Shown in pieces: positions 1 through 8,056 of a stretch of 64,000 nt of DNA (position 1 is the stretch's first letter; each line of letters opens with the position of its first letter). A program made the translations under genes and the position numbers. Source of the DNA: Acidimicrobiales bacterium (GTDB lineage: Bacteria; Actinomycetota; Acidimicrobiia; Acidimicrobiales; JAKAVM01); NCBI GenBank assembly GCA_027452005.1, contig DAIDHF010000010.1, positions 1 through 64,000 of the forward strand, given 5' to 3'. The notes beneath the pieces were generated by a model that saw only the letters and a program-made list of their open reading frames with translations, was not told the DNA's origin and searched no databases.

Positions 1-501
1 ATAATTCGTAGCTACATGGGTTCTAAGAGATGTTTCGATTTTTGTTCTATTTTTATAAATCACATCTAAAAAGCGATATATCTGATCAAGTGAGTAGCTT
101 GATCCAAGAGTTTCTTCGATCCAAATTGCCGTATTTCTTTTGGAAGATGGGTGAATAATTCTCGCGATAGTAAGTAGCCTAAGCAGCGGAGTAAGTCTTC
201 CAATTGATATTGAAAATGAATCGAATATCTCCCCTAAAACAAGCTCAGCTCCATGTTGATAAAAACCCAAGGTTGAAAGACTTCCGCTTTGAATCTGTCC
301 AAGATCAAAACTCAATTGATTTGCTTGGATTGCTTTTGAACGCTCTTTTTCAGCAATTGATTTTAGAATTTCTAGCTCTTCATCATTTGCAGCGGTTCCA
401 ATATGTTTGACAAAAATTGTCTTTAGTCTTCCATCCACCTTTTCTTGCTTTACAAGCCTTACGCGCTTGTGACCTCTATAAGGAGAAACATGAACATACA
501 T
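1..501 (-). CDS. Transposase, IS1634/IS4-like, N-terminal part (runs off left edge)
   Basis: An uninterrupted minus-strand frame opens at ATG 501 (or GTG 507) and continues through base 1, giving 167 residues with no stop. The N-terminus (YRGHKRVRLVKQEKVDGR), then VKHIGTAANDEELE and a helical stretch with TPLLRLLTIARIIHPSSKR, is the pattern I know from the N-terminal part of IS1634-type DDE transposases. The catalytic DDE residues would lie outside the window. The element sits immediately upstream of a 5'-truncated Rhs gene, which suggests that insertion broke that gene. The family call comes from pattern memory and the length is incomplete. Confidence 0.75.
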   Translation of the reverse strand, partial: MYVHVSPYRGHKRVRLVKQEKVDGRLKTIFVKHIGTAANDEELEILKSIAEKERSKAIQANQLSFDLGQIQSGSLSTLGFYQHGAELVLGEIFDSFSISIGRLTPLLRLLTIARIIHPSSKRNTAIWIEETLGSSYSLDQIYRFLDVIYKNRTKIETSLRTHVATNY

Positions 502-518
502 ACACACAAAAGATTAGG

Positions 519-539
519 AGGTACGGATAATACGTACCT
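519..539. repeat. Stem-loop between the IS element and the Rhs gene
   Basis: AGGTACG (519-525) pairs perfectly with CGTACCT (533-539) around a 7-nt loop. It lies just upstream of the transposase start and could be part of the IS end or a small transcription-stopping hairpin. No T-run follows, so a terminator role is not supported. Confidence 0.4.
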
Positions 540-610
540 AGATGAAAGCACAAACCACCCTATACGCTGGTAGTATAAATATTATTACTTAGCTAAAATT
601 TCGGATTTTA

Positions 611-1858
611 GTGAAAATCGCTGAAGATGGGATAAACTTGTCGTCACCTACCGGCAAGCTAGCCAGCCTTACCAACACCTATGACCCGGCAAATCCAATA
701 ACTGGCCAAAGTGATCACTTTAGTGGTCAACCGGCCATCAACACCTCCTATGGCTACTCATCTCTAAACCAGCTAACCTCAGCAACTTCCAGGTTGAATA
801 ACTTGACCAATTCCTATAAAAGTGCTGGCAACCTAGTTACCAACGGACCAGAGGTAAACCAAAGCTATAATGGAGCCGGAGAACTAGTTTCTCAGGCTTG
901 GCGAACTAGAACTGAATGTTACTCTTATGACCAAAATGGGAACAGGACCAAAGAGTTGGGGACTCAAAATGAGACCTTATCCTATAGTGGGGCAGATCAA
1001 TTGACTACCCTAGGCACAGGGTCTTCAACCTACAACTACACCTATAAGGGCAACAATATAAGGTATTCCCAAACCTATAATGGGACAACCACCTACTATG
1101 TCTATAACACCCAGTCCTTTGTTCCTCAACTACTAGGAGATGGGACTAATGACTACATCTATGGACCCTCAGGGGAGCCAATGGAACAGATAAGCCAGTC
1201 AAGTGGCGTACCTAGCTATCTCTACACCGATCAACTGGGGTCGGTTGTAATGGAGGCTAACCAATCAGGCAATGTCACCGCCATTCAGACCTACAGTCCT
1301 TATGGAACAGTGTCTTCCACAACTGGTACGTGGACAACGCCCTTTGGGTTTGCGGGGGGATACACCGATCCCACAGGGCTGATCTATTTGATCAGCCGAT
1401 ACTACGATCCGGCGACGGGGCAGTTTGTGAGTGTGGATCCCGCATTGTCTGCGACTCATCAACCTTACGAATACGTGAGTGATGACCCGGTCAATACAAC
1501 GGACCCGACCGGGAATCTTGTCTTGAAAGGGAAGACAAGCTCCCATTCTCCTGACCTCTCAGTTTGGAGCTTCCAGCAGAACTATGCGTACGCTGCACTC
1601 GGTAGTTGGTCGATCTCGGCTTCGGGAACTCCATGCAACAATCAGTTCACCGTGACGGTTTTGGCAGCGACGTCAACGATATTTGTGGGTCCAGCTCCGA
1701 CAAGCATTTTCGAGGAATATTGCGGTCAAGCACTCTGTGGCGTGTACCAGGTCACTGCTAATCCAGGACCGTACGCAATTTACTTACTTGATGCATTCGG
1801 CAAGAACACGGCGAAATTCGGCGAACCCACCCTAGAGTTCAAAGCTTCGTATCAGTGA
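611..1858 (+). CDS. Rhs/YD-repeat protein, C-terminal fragment with unique tip
   Basis: The 415-residue protein carries YD-type repeats (YSYDQNGNRT, YSPYGTVSSTTG). An Rhs core end follows, with RYYDPATGQFVSVDP and, around residue 300, the DPVNTTDPTG signature. After DPTG comes an unrelated tip of about 115 residues. Intact Rhs proteins exceed 1,000 residues, so this is the 3' end. The GTG at 611 is simply the first available start after an in-frame TAG at 590, and the 5' part is missing next to an IS element. In known Rhs proteins the tip is a toxin released from the core shell. I recognise no catalytic motif in this tip. The stop overlaps the next gene by 4 bp. Confidence 0.8.
   Translation: MKIAEDGINLSSPTGKLASLTNTYDPANPITGQSDHFSGQPAINTSYGYSSLNQLTSATSRLNNLTNSYKSAGNLVTNGPEVNQSYNGAGELVSQAWRTRTECYSYDQNGNRTKELGTQNETLSYSGADQLTTLGTGSSTYNYTYKGNNIRYSQTYNGTTTYYVYNTQSFVPQLLGDGTNDYIYGPSGEPMEQISQSSGVPSYLYTDQLGSVVMEANQSGNVTAIQTYSPYGTVSSTTGTWTTPFGFAGGYTDPTGLIYLISRYYDPATGQFVSVDPALSATHQPYEYVSDDPVNTTDPTGNLVLKGKTSSHSPDLSVWSFQQNYAYAALGSWSISASGTPCNNQFTVTVLAATSTIFVGPAPTSIFEEYCGQALCGVYQVTANPGPYAIYLLDAFGKNTAKFGEPTLEFKASYQ
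1149..1441 (+). repeat. Rhs core-end direct repeat, copy 1 (293 bp)
   Basis: This segment aligns without gaps to 3435-3727, with about 18 mismatches by eye. It begins at ATGACTACATCTATGG and ends at GTGAGTGTGGATCCC, so the shared part encodes the Rhs core up to the variable tip. This is the usual place for Rhs tip exchange. Confidence 0.9.
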
Positions 1859-2364
1859 TTCGGCATATGCGACTGTCCGTGTTTTCGAAAGTGATTGTCG
1901 CCGTAGCAGTTGCGGCTTTGGGATCATTGAGCGTGTCATGTAACTCGACAGGCCAATCATCGTCATCGACTATCGATGCTTCATCTGCCCCTTCGATTTC
2001 TGCAACTCCGGGACTTACTTATGGGCTACTAGGCCAACAATCGGGTCAAGAGCCACCAAGTGGGTGGCCCCAGGGCGGATCTGTCGTGGTAGAGACCCCA
2101 TCGCAAATGAGCGTATCGATTCTTGTCAAAAACGATGCCGCACAAGCGGTCTATCCCGTTTGCGAGGTAGACTTGTTCTTCTGGAATTCGTTCTCCCTCA
2201 ATACCTCTCCGAAGTATCTTGGAGGAAATAATGTGCGTGATGGAAATGCACTTGCGCCGGGGCAAGCCTGGAAGGACACTGATATCGTCTCCGTTCCAAA
2301 CGGAGGAGCGAACCATGTCAATGCGGTAAGCGTTACATGTTGGAGGGACAGTAGTGTCCGTTGA
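1855..2364 (+). CDS. Predicted lipoprotein, candidate immunity partner of the first Rhs tip
   Basis: GTG 1855 overlaps the Rhs stop (GTGA). An in-frame ATG at 1867 would also give a good signal peptide: charged MRLSVFSK, a hydrophobic stretch, then the lipobox LSVSC. The mature part of about 145 residues starts with a Ser/Thr-rich linker and contains a WPQGGSVVVETPSQMSVSI segment typical of a beta-sandwich, but I recognise no family. Translational coupling to the Rhs tip and predicted anchoring in the envelope suggest an immunity-type role. That is inference. Any secreted lipoprotein of unknown function would look the same. Confidence 0.6.
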   Translation: MIRHMRLSVFSKVIVAVAVAALGSLSVSCNSTGQSSSSTIDASSAPSISATPGLTYGLLGQQSGQEPPSGWPQGGSVVVETPSQMSVSILVKNDAAQAVYPVCEVDLFFWNSFSLNTSPKYLGGNNVRDGNALAPGQAWKDTDIVSVPNGGANHVNAVSVTCWRDSSVR

Positions 2365-2770
2365 GTTTGATGGGGTCAACTTTCGGGGATCAATTCCTAA
2401 GTTGCCTCGAACGAAACGAGGGAGTACATCCATCACGGATTACGGCGTGATCATCAAGGACCGTGGCGGTCGTGCGCGTCTTGCGATTCCGTGGAGAAGC
2501 ATCCACGGATACAAGACTCGTGATGATTATGTCCCGAAAAGCCGTGTGATCACACCCGGACAGGTAGCAAATTTTGTCTTATGGCTGTTGCCCATCGGGA
2601 ATTCAAACCTGTCGGACGATTCATCTGAGTACGTGCAAGATGCGCAGGTGTACGGGGTGCTGACGTTCGCCACCAGTTCTGGAACGGTGGAAATACGGTC
2701 CAAGAAACTTTGCGCAGGTGAGATTGAGGCAGCAGCTCAGGAATATCTTCGACCCCTCCCGTTGGCGTGA
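2354..2770 (+). CDS. Hypothetical protein of 138 residues
   Basis: The gene starts at GTG 2354 and overlaps the lipoprotein stop by 11 bp, so it appears to be the third gene of an Rhs-tip/lipoprotein operon. The N-terminal half reads like a compact beta-rich domain (ITDYGVIIKDRGGRARLAIP, then WRSIHGYKT), reminiscent of PH/GRAM-like folds. A hydrophobic VANFVLWLLPIG follows. The C-terminus (GTVEIRSKKLCAGEIEAAA) is helical. I cannot name a family. It may be a second immunity or accessory protein, since it is co-transcribed. Confidence 0.5.
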   Translation: MSVEFDGVNFRGSIPKLPRTKRGSTSITDYGVIIKDRGGRARLAIPWRSIHGYKTRDDYVPKSRVITPGQVANFVLWLLPIGNSNLSDDSSEYVQDAQVYGVLTFATSSGTVEIRSKKLCAGEIEAAAQEYLRPLPLA

Positions 2771-3295
2771 CTCCTTGAAAGAGCAAAGAAAAGTCTCACG
2801 GCCCACGCGAATAGGACCTTCCTGGGAAGCCCCGCTTTTGGCGTTACTCGGAGTACACTGACGTATTTGGTCAACCCTGAGGACACGGCCCCTGCAGCGC
2901 CGAAGGTGCCAAGGGCCGTGTCGCCTACGAAAGGTGCCTACAAGGCGTTCTAAGCCTCGCAAGCTCTTTGCTCCAAATTGACTATTCCTTGTCTTCCTTT
3001 TTCCACAGCACGCATGTACTCTCGAAGGTGAATCGTATCCGCTTGCCTAAGCGTAATGTCAAGGTATCAATCTGGTCGGGGTTTCCAGTGATTGGGCCGG
3101 GGCATGGTCGGGGGGAGGTCGGCCACCGGTCGGGGTGGCACTTTTTGACAAAGAGCCTAGCAATGCTGGGTTTTACTCAAATTCGGTCTAACATACTGAA
3201 AATCGCATATAGAGAGGGCGTAATCACGACGCATTCCTACGACGCCCGAGCCATTATTCCTTGCAGATGACCTGACGTGGTGAGAAGCTTGAGAG
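2771..3295. other. Gene-free stretch between the two Rhs cassettes, with a G-rich tract
   Basis: No convincing gene is seen; the frames open here have no start, no family match and no good initiation site. The stretch is visibly more GC-rich than its surroundings. Between 3075 and 3140 the plus strand carries repeated GGTCGGGG-type blocks, including runs of four to six G. It may be the remains of an older Rhs tip region or other transferred DNA. Confidence 0.4.
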
Positions 3296-4108
3296 GTGAC
3301 ATCGTTGGCCAACTACACCGTTCCCGGAGTGGGCCAGAAACACGCGTCGCTCCGAAATTTCTGTATCTTCCACGTTCAGCGACGTAGTTCCAACTCAAAC
3401 CCGCTTCATACGATTTCGCCGCGCGACCCATCAGATGACTACATCTATGGACCCTCAGGGGAGCCAATAGAACAGATAAGCCAGTCAAGTGGCGTACCTA
3501 GCTATCTCTACACCGATCAACTGGGGTCGGTTGTAATGGATGCTAACCAATCAGGCAATATAACCGCCACACAGAGCTATAGCCCTTATGGATCAGTGTC
3601 TTCCACAACTGGTACGTGGACAACGCCCTTTGGGTTTGCCGGGGGATACACAGATCCCACAGGCCTGATCTATCTGATCAACCGATACTACGACCCGGCG
3701 ACGGGGCAGTTTGTGAGTGTGGATCCCTATGCATGGCTGTCAGGACAATCGTACGGGTACGCCGAGAACAATCCGAGCAACAACAGCGACCCACTGGGTC
3801 TGTGTGATTGGTGGAATGCGTGGTGCGACTTTACTGGCGGTGTCGCGAATCTTTACAATAACTTCTTCGGATATCCAGTTCCTCGAAACTGCGATCTAAC
3901 CACAAAGGGAGATTGGCGAGAAATCCCGAAGGGTTTTTGGGCGGCGTTAAAGGTTCCAGGATTTATCGTAAACAATGCCCATACGATCAAGGTAAAAGTG
4001 GGCACTCTGAAATGTCCGTGCAAGAAGCCTCAAACTGTCTTGGTCGCACAGATCACTTGGAAGTGGACTGATATTGTCAATCAAGTACTGATCACAAAGC
4101 CTTCGTAA
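3296..4108 (+). CDS. Orphan Rhs core end with a second, different C-terminal tip
   Basis: The frame opens at GTG 3296, but the first 46 residues do not look like Rhs sequence. Real homology starts at DDYIYGPSGEP (3435) and runs through RYYDPATGQFVSVDP to the SDPLGL signature. A tip of about 105 residues follows, unlike that of the upstream Rhs gene; it contains Trp-rich CDWWNAWCDF and a CPCKKP motif. The core portion is a 293-bp near-copy of 1149-1441. This is the classic look of an orphan Rhs tip cassette kept as a reservoir for recombination. It may be silent, since it has no proper Rhs N-terminus or secretion module. Confidence 0.7.
   Translation: MTSLANYTVPGVGQKHASLRNFCIFHVQRRSSNSNPLHTISPRDPSDDYIYGPSGEPIEQISQSSGVPSYLYTDQLGSVVMDANQSGNITATQSYSPYGSVSSTTGTWTTPFGFAGGYTDPTGLIYLINRYYDPATGQFVSVDPYAWLSGQSYGYAENNPSNNSDPLGLCDWWNAWCDFTGGVANLYNNFFGYPVPRNCDLTTKGDWREIPKGFWAALKVPGFIVNNAHTIKVKVGTLKCPCKKPQTVLVAQITWKWTDIVNQVLITKPS
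3435..3727 (+). repeat. Rhs core-end direct repeat, copy 2 (293 bp)
   Basis: Same length as and about 94% identical by eye to 1149-1441, in the same orientation, about 2.3 kb downstream. The sequences diverge abruptly after GTGGATCCC at the start of the variable tip and before ATGACTACATC at the 5' edge. Confidence 0.9.
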
Positions 4109-4133: not shown

Positions 4134-4406
4134 ATGAGACAGTTTCGCAAGCGAACGCAACGGATAGTCGCTGTTGCAGTGCTTGCATTACTATCAAGCG
4201 GATGCCTGATCTTAGGGATTGCCGTCGGCCATAGCTTTAGAGACTTTGGGCGTATTCCACTAGTGAACTACACATGTGCCTCTACAATGGATACCGTTGT
4301 CGTTCTAAGCCCGTCTCGAAGCGACAATCAAACGGCTCGGCAACTCGCGAGAGAAGAATGCAAGTCGCCTAATGTTTCGTACGGGTGGCCTCTGAAGAAA
4401 CCTTGA
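4134..4406 (+). CDS. Small predicted lipoprotein, candidate immunity partner of the second Rhs tip
   Basis: This 90-residue protein has a basic N-terminus (MRQFRKRTQRIV), a hydrophobic core and the lipobox LLSSGC at residues 19-24. The short mature part has two further Cys (NYTCAS and REECKS) that could pair. It starts 26 bp after the second Rhs tip, mirroring the layout of the first cassette although the sequences are unrelated. The immunity role is inferred from position. No family is recognised. Confidence 0.55.
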   Translation: MRQFRKRTQRIVAVAVLALLSSGCLILGIAVGHSFRDFGRIPLVNYTCASTMDTVVVLSPSRSDNQTARQLAREECKSPNVSYGWPLKKP

Positions 4407-4446
4407 AATTGTATAGTGAGCCTCCCCAGTTTTAGTAGACACGCAT

Positions 4447-4626
4447 CTATGCTGCCTTGGTCTGTTGTTTAAATTCTAACTCAAATCTCATTGGGCTGAT
4501 ATTTCCTATCTTTAAGCACCTCCTTTTGTAGTTGTAGTTGTTTCTATACCAGGCAATTCCAGCTCTGAGTTCTTCTTGGTTTTTGAATGTATGTCGGTGG
4601 CGGGTACCCATTAGTCGGTCCACCCT
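4447..4626 (-). pseudogene. IS3-family transposase remnant (C-terminal end of the integrase domain)
   Basis: A 59-residue minus-strand frame bounded upstream by a stop reads GTRHRHTFKNQEELRAGI, then WYRNNYNYKRRCLKIGNISP and MRFELEF, ending in KQQTKAA. This matches the C-terminus of IS3-type OrfB integrases: a basic segment, the W/F-Y-N..R.H block, and SP(M/V).FE. Everything N-terminal, including the DDE residues, is absent, so it is a decayed fragment marking past insertion at the edge of the Rhs region. Confidence 0.6.
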
Positions 4627-4629
4627 CTA

Positions 4630-4908
4630 TGTTGGTATTTCGTCCTTCACGGCATCGCTGCCATAACTTGATTGGCAGATATCTCGAAGGTCCGTGGGGC
4701 AGTGCCAAAGGAAATAATATATCAACTTTACATAATGTACATTATGGGCGTTTGATCCCTGGGAATATGTCCACTACCAGGTCCTTTTCTGAATATACAC
4801 GGCCAATCAGAGTTCCTCTGGGGCGTGGCAAACCGATTGAGCGAAATATTCGAACCTAAAGCCATTAGGATGCGTCATATATTGCGTGAACAAAATCGGT
4901 GATTTCTA
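4630..4908. other. Non-coding stretch upstream of the ECF sigma gene, with a 16-bp palindrome
   Basis: No gene is recognised here. The one structured element is the perfect palindrome CATAATGTACATTATG at 4731-4746, about 160 bp before the sigma factor start. It is AT-rich and could be an operator; the surrounding bases do not give a clear -35/-10 pair. Confidence 0.4.
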
Positions 4909-5478
4909 ATGAGCGATCTGTCTACTTGGCTGGAGAATTACTACGGTCAGGCCTACAAGACTGCGTACTTTCTGATTGGAAACAAGTCTGATGCTGAAGA
5001 GGCGGTTCAAGACGCATTTCTGAGGGCCTGGAGGTTTAGAGATGCCATTGAAGGCAAGGACGTTTCCTCAATCCGTCCTTGGCTGTACCGGGTATTGGTG
5101 AACGCCTGTAACTCAAAACTCCGCTCTGAAATACCCAGACGTGACCGCCGGGCCGAATCGGCCAATCTTGACCAGATCAAAGATGACCGGAGTTCACCGA
5201 CTTTTGAAACCGAGCGTTCGGAGCTTGTTGAAATTTTGATGGAATCCCTGGCAAAGTTGCCAGAACACCTAAGGGCCACTGTAGTTCTTAGATACTTTCT
5301 TGATTTGAGTGAAAAGGAGATTGCTAAGGCCATCGGACGGAGACCAGGAACGGTTAAGTCACGCCTAAATGAGGCAAAGCAGAGAATGAGTCAGGATAGT
5401 TCGCTTCAACAGCTAGCCAAGGACTGGATTGGACCAACCTATCCAAAGACCAACGGAGGAGTTCAACTAAAGAAATGA
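4909..5478 (+). CDS. ECF-type RNA polymerase sigma-70 factor
   Basis: This 189-residue protein has the two-domain layout of an ECF sigma factor. Region 2 spans about residues 9-75 (YGQAYKTAYFLIGNKSDAEE, VQDAFLRAWRF, RPWLYRVLVNAC). A charged linker follows, then region 4 at about 120-170 (LPEHLRATVVLRYFLDLSEK, then EIAKAIGRRPGTVKSRL as the helix-turn-helix). It would direct polymerase to a specific regulon. Its last codons overlap the next gene through ATGA, so the two are translationally coupled; ECF factors are commonly paired this way with their anti-sigma factor. The regulon is unknown. Confidence 0.9.
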   Translation: MSDLSTWLENYYGQAYKTAYFLIGNKSDAEEAVQDAFLRAWRFRDAIEGKDVSSIRPWLYRVLVNACNSKLRSEIPRRDRRAESANLDQIKDDRSSPTFETERSELVEILMESLAKLPEHLRATVVLRYFLDLSEKEIAKAIGRRPGTVKSRLNEAKQRMSQDSSLQQLAKDWIGPTYPKTNGGVQLKK

Positions 5479-6791
5479 ATCTTATAGATGATCAAGTACT
5501 TACAGAGTTATTTATCGCTGGTGGGTCGGATATTGACGTAGATCTTGACCAGGTAGGCAAGATACTGTCTGCGTCGGCCGGATCGATTCAAGCAAGGGAA
5601 GAGGTAACACGACAAGACTTCGCAGGGCTCGATGAGGACTTGCTCGATAACAACGCCAACGCATCAGAGGTTACCCATATTGAAGGTGAAGAGTTCGTTC
5701 AAGATGGATCAACCGATCGGAAAAGGCTTTCATTAATAACGCACCCAACGAGGAAAATACTATTTACTGGTGCCGCCACAGTGGCAATAATCGTTGGATC
5801 ACTTTTGTCAATTAGTATGTTTCAATCTCAATCAAGGGATCAATCAACCAAGTCGGCAAGTGCACTGGCCAGTGGACCCCAGTTGGGACCGATGAACAGA
5901 ACACAGATTTCAGGTACCAGCACCCAACCGACCATCAATTCCCAAGCCGATAGTTTCGGTAGCTCTATAGGCACTTCAAATGGTCCTGCAGGAAATGCCG
6001 CAGCGCCACTGCACCAGTCGTTGGCCCAATCAAGTATTTCACCTCCCGCTACCACAACCGTTGTATCGCCAGTTGTGCCCGGGGCCCAAAATCCACCTCC
6101 GAATCCAAGTGCAATTGAAAAGTCCGGATCTCTGGCTCTAAACGTCAAAAATGGGCATTTTTTCTCGGTATTTGATCAGATCACTCAACTGCCAGGCGGA
6201 GTTGGTGGTTTTGTTGGAGCAAGTAATACTCAGAGTTCCGAAGGGCTCATGACTGGTACCGCAACTTTGGAGGTCCCCGTAAATGATTTTGAGTCAGTCG
6301 TTTCCCAGATCCAGGGACTAGGCAAGGTGACTAGTATCTCGACAAAAGCCACAAATGTTACCGGCCAGGTTGTTGACTTGGCATCACGCATACAAGCCTT
6401 GCAGGACTCTTTGGCCCAGTACGAGAAGATCTTGTCACAGGCAACTTCAATTGGTGACGTTCTTCAGGTTCAAGGTCAGATAAGCTCTATCCAGTCGCAG
6501 ATAGAACAGCTCCAAGGTGAGCAGAATCTTATGAATGCAGTAACTGCTTACTCCTCGATAGATGTAACGGTTACCGAGTTGGCTGCTAACGGGTCAAATA
6601 TAGTTCACCACTCCCCCGGTCCTATGACTGGCTTTTCACTCGCCTGGCACCAGGCTATGAGCGGTATTGCCACGGTATTTGAGTGGCTAATTCGTATTGG
6701 AATCCCAATCTCTATTGGGCTTGTGTTTCTAATGCTAGTGTTCTACTTGGTACGAGCTGGATTGAAGGTTTTCAGGAGGCTCCGCCTCTAG
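5475..6791 (+). CDS. DUF4349 membrane protein, possible anti-sigma partner
   Basis: This 438-residue protein has a cytoplasmic acidic N-terminus (1-93), a transmembrane segment at about 94-116, a Ser/Pro/Gln-rich linker, and a DUF4349 domain at about 215-370. Within the domain, SGSLALNVKNG, TATLEVPVNDF and a coiled-coil DLASRIQALQDSLAQYEKIL are followed by a second helical stretch. A C-terminal transmembrane helix lies at about 406-427 with a basic tail. The gene starts inside the sigma factor's stop (ATGA). No HxxxCxxC zinc anti-sigma motif is present, so the N-terminal region may bind the sigma factor in another way. DUF4349 has no settled function; an anti-sigma or envelope-sensor role is inference from coupling. 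Confidence 0.75.
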   Translation: MNLIDDQVLTELFIAGGSDIDVDLDQVGKILSASAGSIQAREEVTRQDFAGLDEDLLDNNANASEVTHIEGEEFVQDGSTDRKRLSLITHPTRKILFTGAATVAIIVGSLLSISMFQSQSRDQSTKSASALASGPQLGPMNRTQISGTSTQPTINSQADSFGSSIGTSNGPAGNAAAPLHQSLAQSSISPPATTTVVSPVVPGAQNPPPNPSAIEKSGSLALNVKNGHFFSVFDQITQLPGGVGGFVGASNTQSSEGLMTGTATLEVPVNDFESVVSQIQGLGKVTSISTKATNVTGQVVDLASRIQALQDSLAQYEKILSQATSIGDVLQVQGQISSIQSQIEQLQGEQNLMNAVTAYSSIDVTVTELAANGSNIVHHSPGPMTGFSLAWHQAMSGIATVFEWLIRIGIPISIGLVFLMLVFYLVRAGLKVFRRLRL

Positions 6792-7201: not shown

Positions 7202-8056
7202 CTATTTGTTATCTTGCCGATGGGTTAGATGATGATGCTTTTTTGTTTGGGTCTTCTTCTGGCTGACCCTTTGGGCCACGCCCCAATCAAATTCTCGGCT
7301 AGGCGGAATCGTCGTGGAGTCATATACGGCCTCCCTAAGATCACAGTTTTCTATTTGAGCCTCATACAGGTATGCCCCACACAGATTCGCCTTGTGAAGA
7401 TTAGCCCGAAGTACCATCGCCTTGCGGAAAAAGGCCATCGGAAAGTCCACCTCGGCAAGTATTGAATCACTCAGATCTGCTTCTTGGAGTCGGGCACCCA
7501 TGCAGTTGGCCCCTGATAGATCTGCCCCATGAAGATTTGCCCTAGTGAGATCTGCCCTAGATAGATTGGCTGCTGCTAGATTAGCTCCAGATAGGTCTGC
7601 TTCAGTCAAAATCGCATGGGAAAGGTCGGCGGCATACAGATCTGCCCCACGCAGATTTGCCCGCCTCAAATTTGCATGGCTCATCTTGATCTTTCTCATT
7701 GTTGCATTTCCAAGATTTGCCTCAGATAGAACGGGACGGTTTAAAAAGATTCCGGAAAGGTTCGACTCCATGAGATCAGCCCTTGGGACAAAGTCTTTTG
7801 GCTTTAGCGCCTGCCCGAGCTTATTAACTCCAAAAGGTGCCTCAGAGCGCGAAAAGGCCGGAGCGGGTCCTGGTGAGCCAGGTTTTGAACTGGTTCGAAC
7901 TGCTGTCTTGGGCCTGGCTGGATTAGAGGCCCGCTTTCCCCATAATGGCACACAAAAATAATAGCCCAAATGCTTGCAAAAGTTAGATTCAGGCGGATTT
8001 GCAATGTATGAGTCAGGATTACCTGCTTGAATTGTTAATGTGACAGACCACAGCAC
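7202..8056 (-). CDS. Pentapeptide-repeat protein
   Basis: Roughly residues 92-248 are tandem A(D/N)LxX pentapeptides (for example RANLRGADLYAADLSHA and ANLHGADLSGAN), which fold as a right-handed quadrilateral beta-helix. The N-terminal 90 residues contain two Cys (NFCKHLGYYFC), then a Pro/Ser-rich linker. The C-terminus is Lys/His-rich. The start is uncertain: GTG 8056 lies inside the divergent RDD gene by 17 bp, and a downstream GTG near residue 36 is possible. Pentapeptide proteins range from DNA-gyrase mimics to structural adaptors, so function is open. Confidence 0.8.
   Translation of the reverse strand: MLWSVTLTIQAGNPDSYIANPPESNFCKHLGYYFCVPLWGKRASNPARPKTAVRTSSKPGSPGPAPAFSRSEAPFGVNKLGQALKPKDFVPRADLMESNLSGIFLNRPVLSEANLGNATMRKIKMSHANLRRANLRGADLYAADLSHAILTEADLSGANLAAANLSRADLTRANLHGADLSGANCMGARLQEADLSDSILAEVDFPMAFFRKAMVLRANLHKANLCGAYLYEAQIENCDLREAVYDSTTIPPSREFDWGVAQRVSQKKTQTKKHHHLTHRQDNK

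Follow-up and report, generated by a model that had tools for sequence, protein, structure and literature searches.

The window analysed here, a stretch of 64,000 nucleotides, forms the first part of contig C10 in a draft genome comprising 3.2 Mb in 195 contigs. Close to its beginning lie two copies of a 293-nt sequence, at 1149-1441 and 3435-3727 (both on the forward strand), which the repeat search of the window returned as a single two-copy family of gap-free direct repeats. Their identity is 94.5% by BLAST (E ~3e-128) and 95% by the repeat search, far beyond chance, which confirms the pair of 293-bp copies reported in the first-pass annotation. The copies are contained in the open frames 593-1858 and 3293-4108, and the profile search clearly showed that both match the Rhs core end TIGR03696 (Rhs_assc_core), copy 1 with E 3.6e-19 and copy 2 with E 1.2e-18. 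The Pfam RHS_repeat match in copy 1 was below the threshold (E 0.13), and copy 2 gave no such match. The first copy belongs to a longer YD/Rhs_assc_core fragment (633-1513, forward strand), and the second constitutes the entire core portion of its cassette. The DNA identity between the copies stops at the VDP codons. In most copies, about 25 further residues are still related at the protein level, according to the pattern ..QPYxYxxxNPVNxxDPxG and up to its DPxG, which places the start of the tips proper at about 1514 and 3794 and agrees with the residues 303-415 and 166-270 proposed earlier. The DPxG core ending is present at both junctions, as NTTDPTGN and NNSDPLGL.

Both core fragments are headless. 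Positions 1-632 (reverse strand) are occupied by the end of an IS1634-family element with the 5′ part of its transposase gene (1-507; NCBIfam NF033559 transpos_IS1634, E 6e-12), which truncates the first Rhs fragment. Base 632 is an IS1634-type boundary: the copy of the element on contig C34 matches up to this base, and an uninterrupted Rhs core on contig C19 matches from there on. The core of the second cassette comprises only about 100 codons and begins directly at its core fragment, preceded by an inter-cassette stretch (2771-3434) where the codon-usage score reveals no coding signal and which provides neither a start nor an export signal. Because copy 1 is cut by the IS1634-type element and copy 2 has no upstream coding signal, both are orphan cassettes, i.e., 5′-truncated core fragments devoid of a translation start and an export signal, and neither is a complete gene. 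The first-pass annotation was thus right in regarding the second copy as an orphan, but not in treating it as the only one, since the first copy is headless as well.

Remnants of insertion sequences are also found downstream of the second cassette. An IS3-type transposase fragment (4410-4597, reverse strand; ORF 4447-4623, the IS3 type being assigned by eye from the ORF sequence) abuts the second candidate immunity gene described below, and 84 bp of it are 98.8% identical to one end of contig C109. Then comes the terminal fragment of another IS3-like element (4598-4750, forward strand), which is represented in the genome by 23 copies. Some 10 of these are located no more than a few kb from an Rhs core end, often downstream of the tip and almost always oriented like the Rhs gene, a proximity that is enriched approximately 18-fold over a rough footprint. 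The possibility that this repeat serves as a recombination site at cassette ends was considered and rejected: it is an IS end, because its longer copies extend into the coding sequence for the C-terminal end of an IS3-type transposase (QETYNKWRPHSSLGYLSPEEF) and no Rfam match was obtained. The element may help to move the cassettes, or it may simply mark IS-rich islands. Directly beside the Rhs island (4909-6791), a gene for an ECF-type sigma factor precedes one for a membrane protein that by eye resembles DUF4349, and the gene at 7202-8056 encodes a pentapeptide-repeat protein whose 15-bp period is visible in the DNA.

The two tips, encoded by 1514-1858 and 3794-4108 (forward strand), comprise 114 aa with three cysteines and 104 aa with five cysteines, respectively. 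Neither of them matches any Pfam or NCBIfam profile past the core end, nuclease families included, and for the tips together with their downstream genes no meaningful match was obtained in Pfam, NCBIfam, PHROGs or PADLOC. The tips were not found in 295 other genomes of the class, nor in 84,980 species genomes, in plasmids and phages, in viral contigs, or among PDB sequences, although distant relatives may be missed because scans of these collections with a single protein as the query detect close relatives only. Neither tip shows a recognisable toxic activity, fold or motif. The AlphaFold2 single-tip models, partly beta, were unreliable (pLDDT 43 and 58) and were left out of use; with these unreliable models, Foldseek gave no match at E below 0.5. 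Resident genes reach a median codon-usage score of 0.14, but the tips score only 0.02 and 0.01, weak values that may reflect decay or recent acquisition. The first-pass annotation had suggested that the tips could be new effector types, which the complete absence of detectable relatives is consistent with, and no house-keeping domain, which would have spoken against this, was matched. At the available sensitivity, the two tips and their partners appear to be new, while the arrangement itself is classical. That the tips are toxins, as Rhs tips usually are, is suggested by this architecture.

Directly 3′ of the tips, in the position expected for immunity genes, lie the small ORFs 1867-2364 and 4134-4406 (both on the forward strand), each encoding a predicted lipoprotein. 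The first, with the lipobox LSVSC, has a frame that opens at the GTG at 1855 and thus overlaps the tip stop. It is in turn overlapped by a small ORF for a soluble protein of 138 aa (2354-2770, forward strand), which may be a second candidate immunity gene or an accessory gene and which shows a faint similarity (E 2.5e-4) to a 347-aa protein encoded on contig C11 of the same genome. In the second cassette, the lipoprotein gene, with the lipobox LSSGC, is the sole downstream partner. No credible relatives of the downstream genes were found in the genome sample of the class; a match of the first lipoprotein in genome G154 was discarded as due to chance, being antisense to a transporter gene. Likewise, a PH-like impression given by ORF 2354-2770 and some other partners gained no support from Pfam.

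The core end is by no means confined to this locus, as 19 Rhs core ends are present in the genome. When a long query was used, all 11 other DNA matches stopped at window base 1439-1443 and were followed by different tips, whereas their left edges varied (632, 1099, 1121, 1143, 1286 and others). This result rests on the long query, because the shared match ends obtained with a shorter one are trivial, the query itself having stopped there. One core on contig C19, which carries a second tandem array of the genome, is 94.6% identical over 809 bp (window 632-1440) and leads to yet another tip; for the four copies on C19, C3 and C84 taken together, the core identity ranges from 89.7 to 94.6%. The common right edge and the comparison of the tips clearly show variable tips on a conserved core. 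At the sequence level, tip exchange on a common Rhs core, recognised already in the first-pass annotation, is thus well supported, and the pattern is that of classical Rhs tip displacement, an ordinary and well-understood phenomenon.

The same layout recurs outside this genome. Core relatives occur mainly in Acidimicrobiaceae and other actinobacterial MAGs among the named genomes, the nearest being 76% identical, so that the core is not lacking in all relatives, which would have told against tip exchange. From these relatives, the organism itself is probably an acidimicrobial actinobacterium. Its distribution in the class is patchy (13 of 296 genomes at E below 1e-10). The related MAG L075, whose core is 76% identical, bears three core ends with three tips in tandem within about 4 kb, and a similar tandem pair is found in genome G287. 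That separate genomes share this layout speaks against an assembly artefact. Related proteins with two transmembrane segments (E 4e-41) were noted as the partner after the L075 tip that ends at 2137 and as the second post-tip ORF of L020 (contig C50); since they adjoin Rhs tips in two genomes, some partner families are common to different lineages. At another locus (L021, contig C21, 8563-9094), the tip matches DUF2599 (E 7e-11) and is followed by a predicted lipoprotein, which suggests a possible toxin role for DUF2599. With its spaced His motifs (HAMAGRKNENY ... AIHAIQDSYASGH), the tip of L066 (contig C61) by eye resembles a zinc-dependent phospholipase C; it has no Pfam match and precedes a protein with five predicted transmembrane helices.

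Contig C58 encodes a complete carrier of 3208 aa, which begins with a signal peptide (by eye) and contains TIG domains, DUF6531 and RHS repeats (E 4e-67). This is the architecture expected of a Sec-secreted WapA-like protein, and the length falls within the WapA-type range (2200-3600 aa); the Rhs genes of the window have neither this size nor such a signal. Since the C58 core shows only 76% DNA identity to the window copies, a closer carrier may be hidden in the assembly gaps, contig breaks being found inside the cores on C84 and C32.

Furthermore, we classified the gene that follows the tip in the 13 cassettes with an apparently intact tip, a set that was hand-curated after looking and in which the partner starts on C55 and C61 were set by hand. 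The short tips of the C62 copy and of one C19 copy look broken. The background consisted of 282 genes with an upper length limit of 420 aa, taken from the remainder of the window and from 20 regions, each of 20 kb; lipoproteins were called by a strict PROSITE-type pattern rule, not by a trained predictor. The results clearly showed an excess of lipoproteins among the partners (5 of 13 vs. 9 of 282, or 3.2%; p ~1e-4) and of envelope proteins in general, i.e., lipoproteins or membrane proteins (10 of 13 vs. 29%; p ~7e-4); the other three partners are soluble. When all 19 core ends were counted, the excess was weaker (p ~8e-4 for lipoproteins and ~0.01 for envelope proteins). Moreover, all 13 tips contain at least 1.9% cysteine, with a mean of 3.3% vs. 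1.3% (p ~1e-6), which also exceeds the content in exported-type proteins of the same genome. The number of cysteines is odd in 10 of the 13 tips, which does not fit simple complete disulfide pairing.

Taken together, the core identity, the shared right edge, the truncations, the absence of relatives, and the enrichment in lipoproteins and cysteine are best explained by a displaced reservoir of orphan Rhs C-terminal tips acting on the envelope, with lipoproteins as immunity proteins, a reading which we hold to be somewhat more probable than its negation. In each cassette, a stretch of conserved core leads into a variable tip, which a small gene follows. The cassettes are probably silent at present, because neither has a start or an export signal, and would serve as a store of tips. 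Homologous recombination via the core stretch of about 290 bp would join a tip and its downstream gene to a full-length secreted carrier, such as the 3208-aa C58 gene or a closer one lost in the assembly gaps. Indeed, experiments have shown that recombination with the main gene can activate orphan rhs tips (PMC3967940), and displaced tips form arrays (PMC2935791). Once joined, the tip would act as a contact-delivered antibacterial toxin, most likely at the outer face of a competitor's membrane or at its cell wall, as the lipoprotein nature of the partners and the cysteine richness of the tips suggest, while the lipoprotein would shield the producer on its own surface. A lipoprotein immunity protein accompanies extracellular toxin action in the case of TslA/TilA (PMC10730906), and membrane-bound immunity proteins protect against toxins acting from outside (PMC12744356).

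The cassettes could instead carry nuclease or other intracellular tips acting in the cytosol, as does WapA of Bacillus, the lipoproteins being mere neighbours or blocking uptake. This is conceivable, as the known immunity proteins of polymorphic toxins are mostly cytosolic (PMC3482391), three partners in the genome are soluble, and the soluble 138-aa ORF after cassette 1 could be the true immunity gene. However, lipoproteins and membrane proteins are strongly over-represented among the partners, cassette 2 has a lipoprotein alone, and the tips are cysteine-rich and match no nuclease family, which makes cytosolic action unlikely. Rather improbable, too, is that the cassettes are dead, Rhs fragments that were damaged by IS elements and now drift without any function, even though the IS1634 truncation at 632, the IS3-type remnants at 4410-4750, the lack of a start before copy 2, the weak codon usage, and the very short tips of the C62 copy and one C19 copy would all fit. 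No frame is interrupted in the core, in the two tips or in any of the three downstream ORFs, the downstream ORFs overlap or closely trail the tip stops, and the lipoprotein signals are intact; silence is moreover normal for orphan cassettes, which are re-usable (PMC3967940). Finally, the tips could be surface or adhesive domains whose exchange yields antigenic or binding variation, as the cysteine richness, the partly beta (unreliable) models and the lack of a recognised catalytic motif would suggest. This is very unlikely, since each tip has a small downstream gene of its own, a hallmark of toxin/immunity pairing, and one partner family is common to two genomes, where it stands beside different core copies.

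The orphan envelope-toxin reservoir that we favour closely resembles the orphan Rhs tips of Enterobacteriaceae (PMC2935791; PMC3967940) in its near-identical core fragments, unrelated tips, junction near DPxG, lack of a start signal, linked small ORF and tandem arrangement. It differs in its host, an actinobacterium whose YD carrier has a signal peptide and takes the place of a T6SS-type Rhs protein, in its cassettes, which lie dispersed on many contigs in addition to the tandem arrays, and in its partners, mostly lipoproteins or membrane proteins. With WapA/WapI of Bacillus it shares a large Sec-type secreted YD carrier (C58), a polymorphic C-terminal tip and a small downstream gene. The WapA protein of B. 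subtilis, however, is the carrier of a tRNase (PMC5566331), whereas the cassettes described here have predicted lipoproteins as partners and, in the window, no carrier part. Toxins paired with a lipobox-bearing immunity protein are also Tox-JAB-1/Imm65 (PMC3482391), where the toxin is a deaminase-fold domain of Bacteroidetes, and TslA/TilA (PMC10730906), where it is a type VII-secreted phospholipase, but the window proteins match no such domain family. By its description, the Rhs pore-forming toxin Tse5 with its membrane-bound immunity protein Tsi5 (PMC10684867, PMC12744356) is countered at the membrane, as proposed here for the window tips, but it is delivered by a T6SS in a Gram-negative bacterium.

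The interesting part is therefore not the arrangement, which is ordinary, but the envelope bias of the whole cassette set. Of the more than 85 immunity superfamilies in a broad survey of polymorphic toxins, nearly all are cytosolic and just one, Imm65, is a lipoprotein family (PMC3482391), so that this bias is unusual, though it has precedent. More tentatively, and with somewhat less than even confidence, we propose that the Rhs reservoir of this lineage is an envelope-acting arsenal of unrelated, cysteine-rich and probably disulfide-stabilised toxins that work outside the target cytoplasm without import, with a surface lipoprotein or a membrane protein to neutralise each of them; the two window tips would then establish two toxin families not known so far, and their lipoproteins would do the same for immunity proteins. 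The set of loci provides a short list of small, testable candidate toxin/immunity pairs without known relatives. Lipoproteins being among the commonest partners, the Rhs proteins of this lineage may attack the envelope directly, in which case the toxins would not need to be imported.
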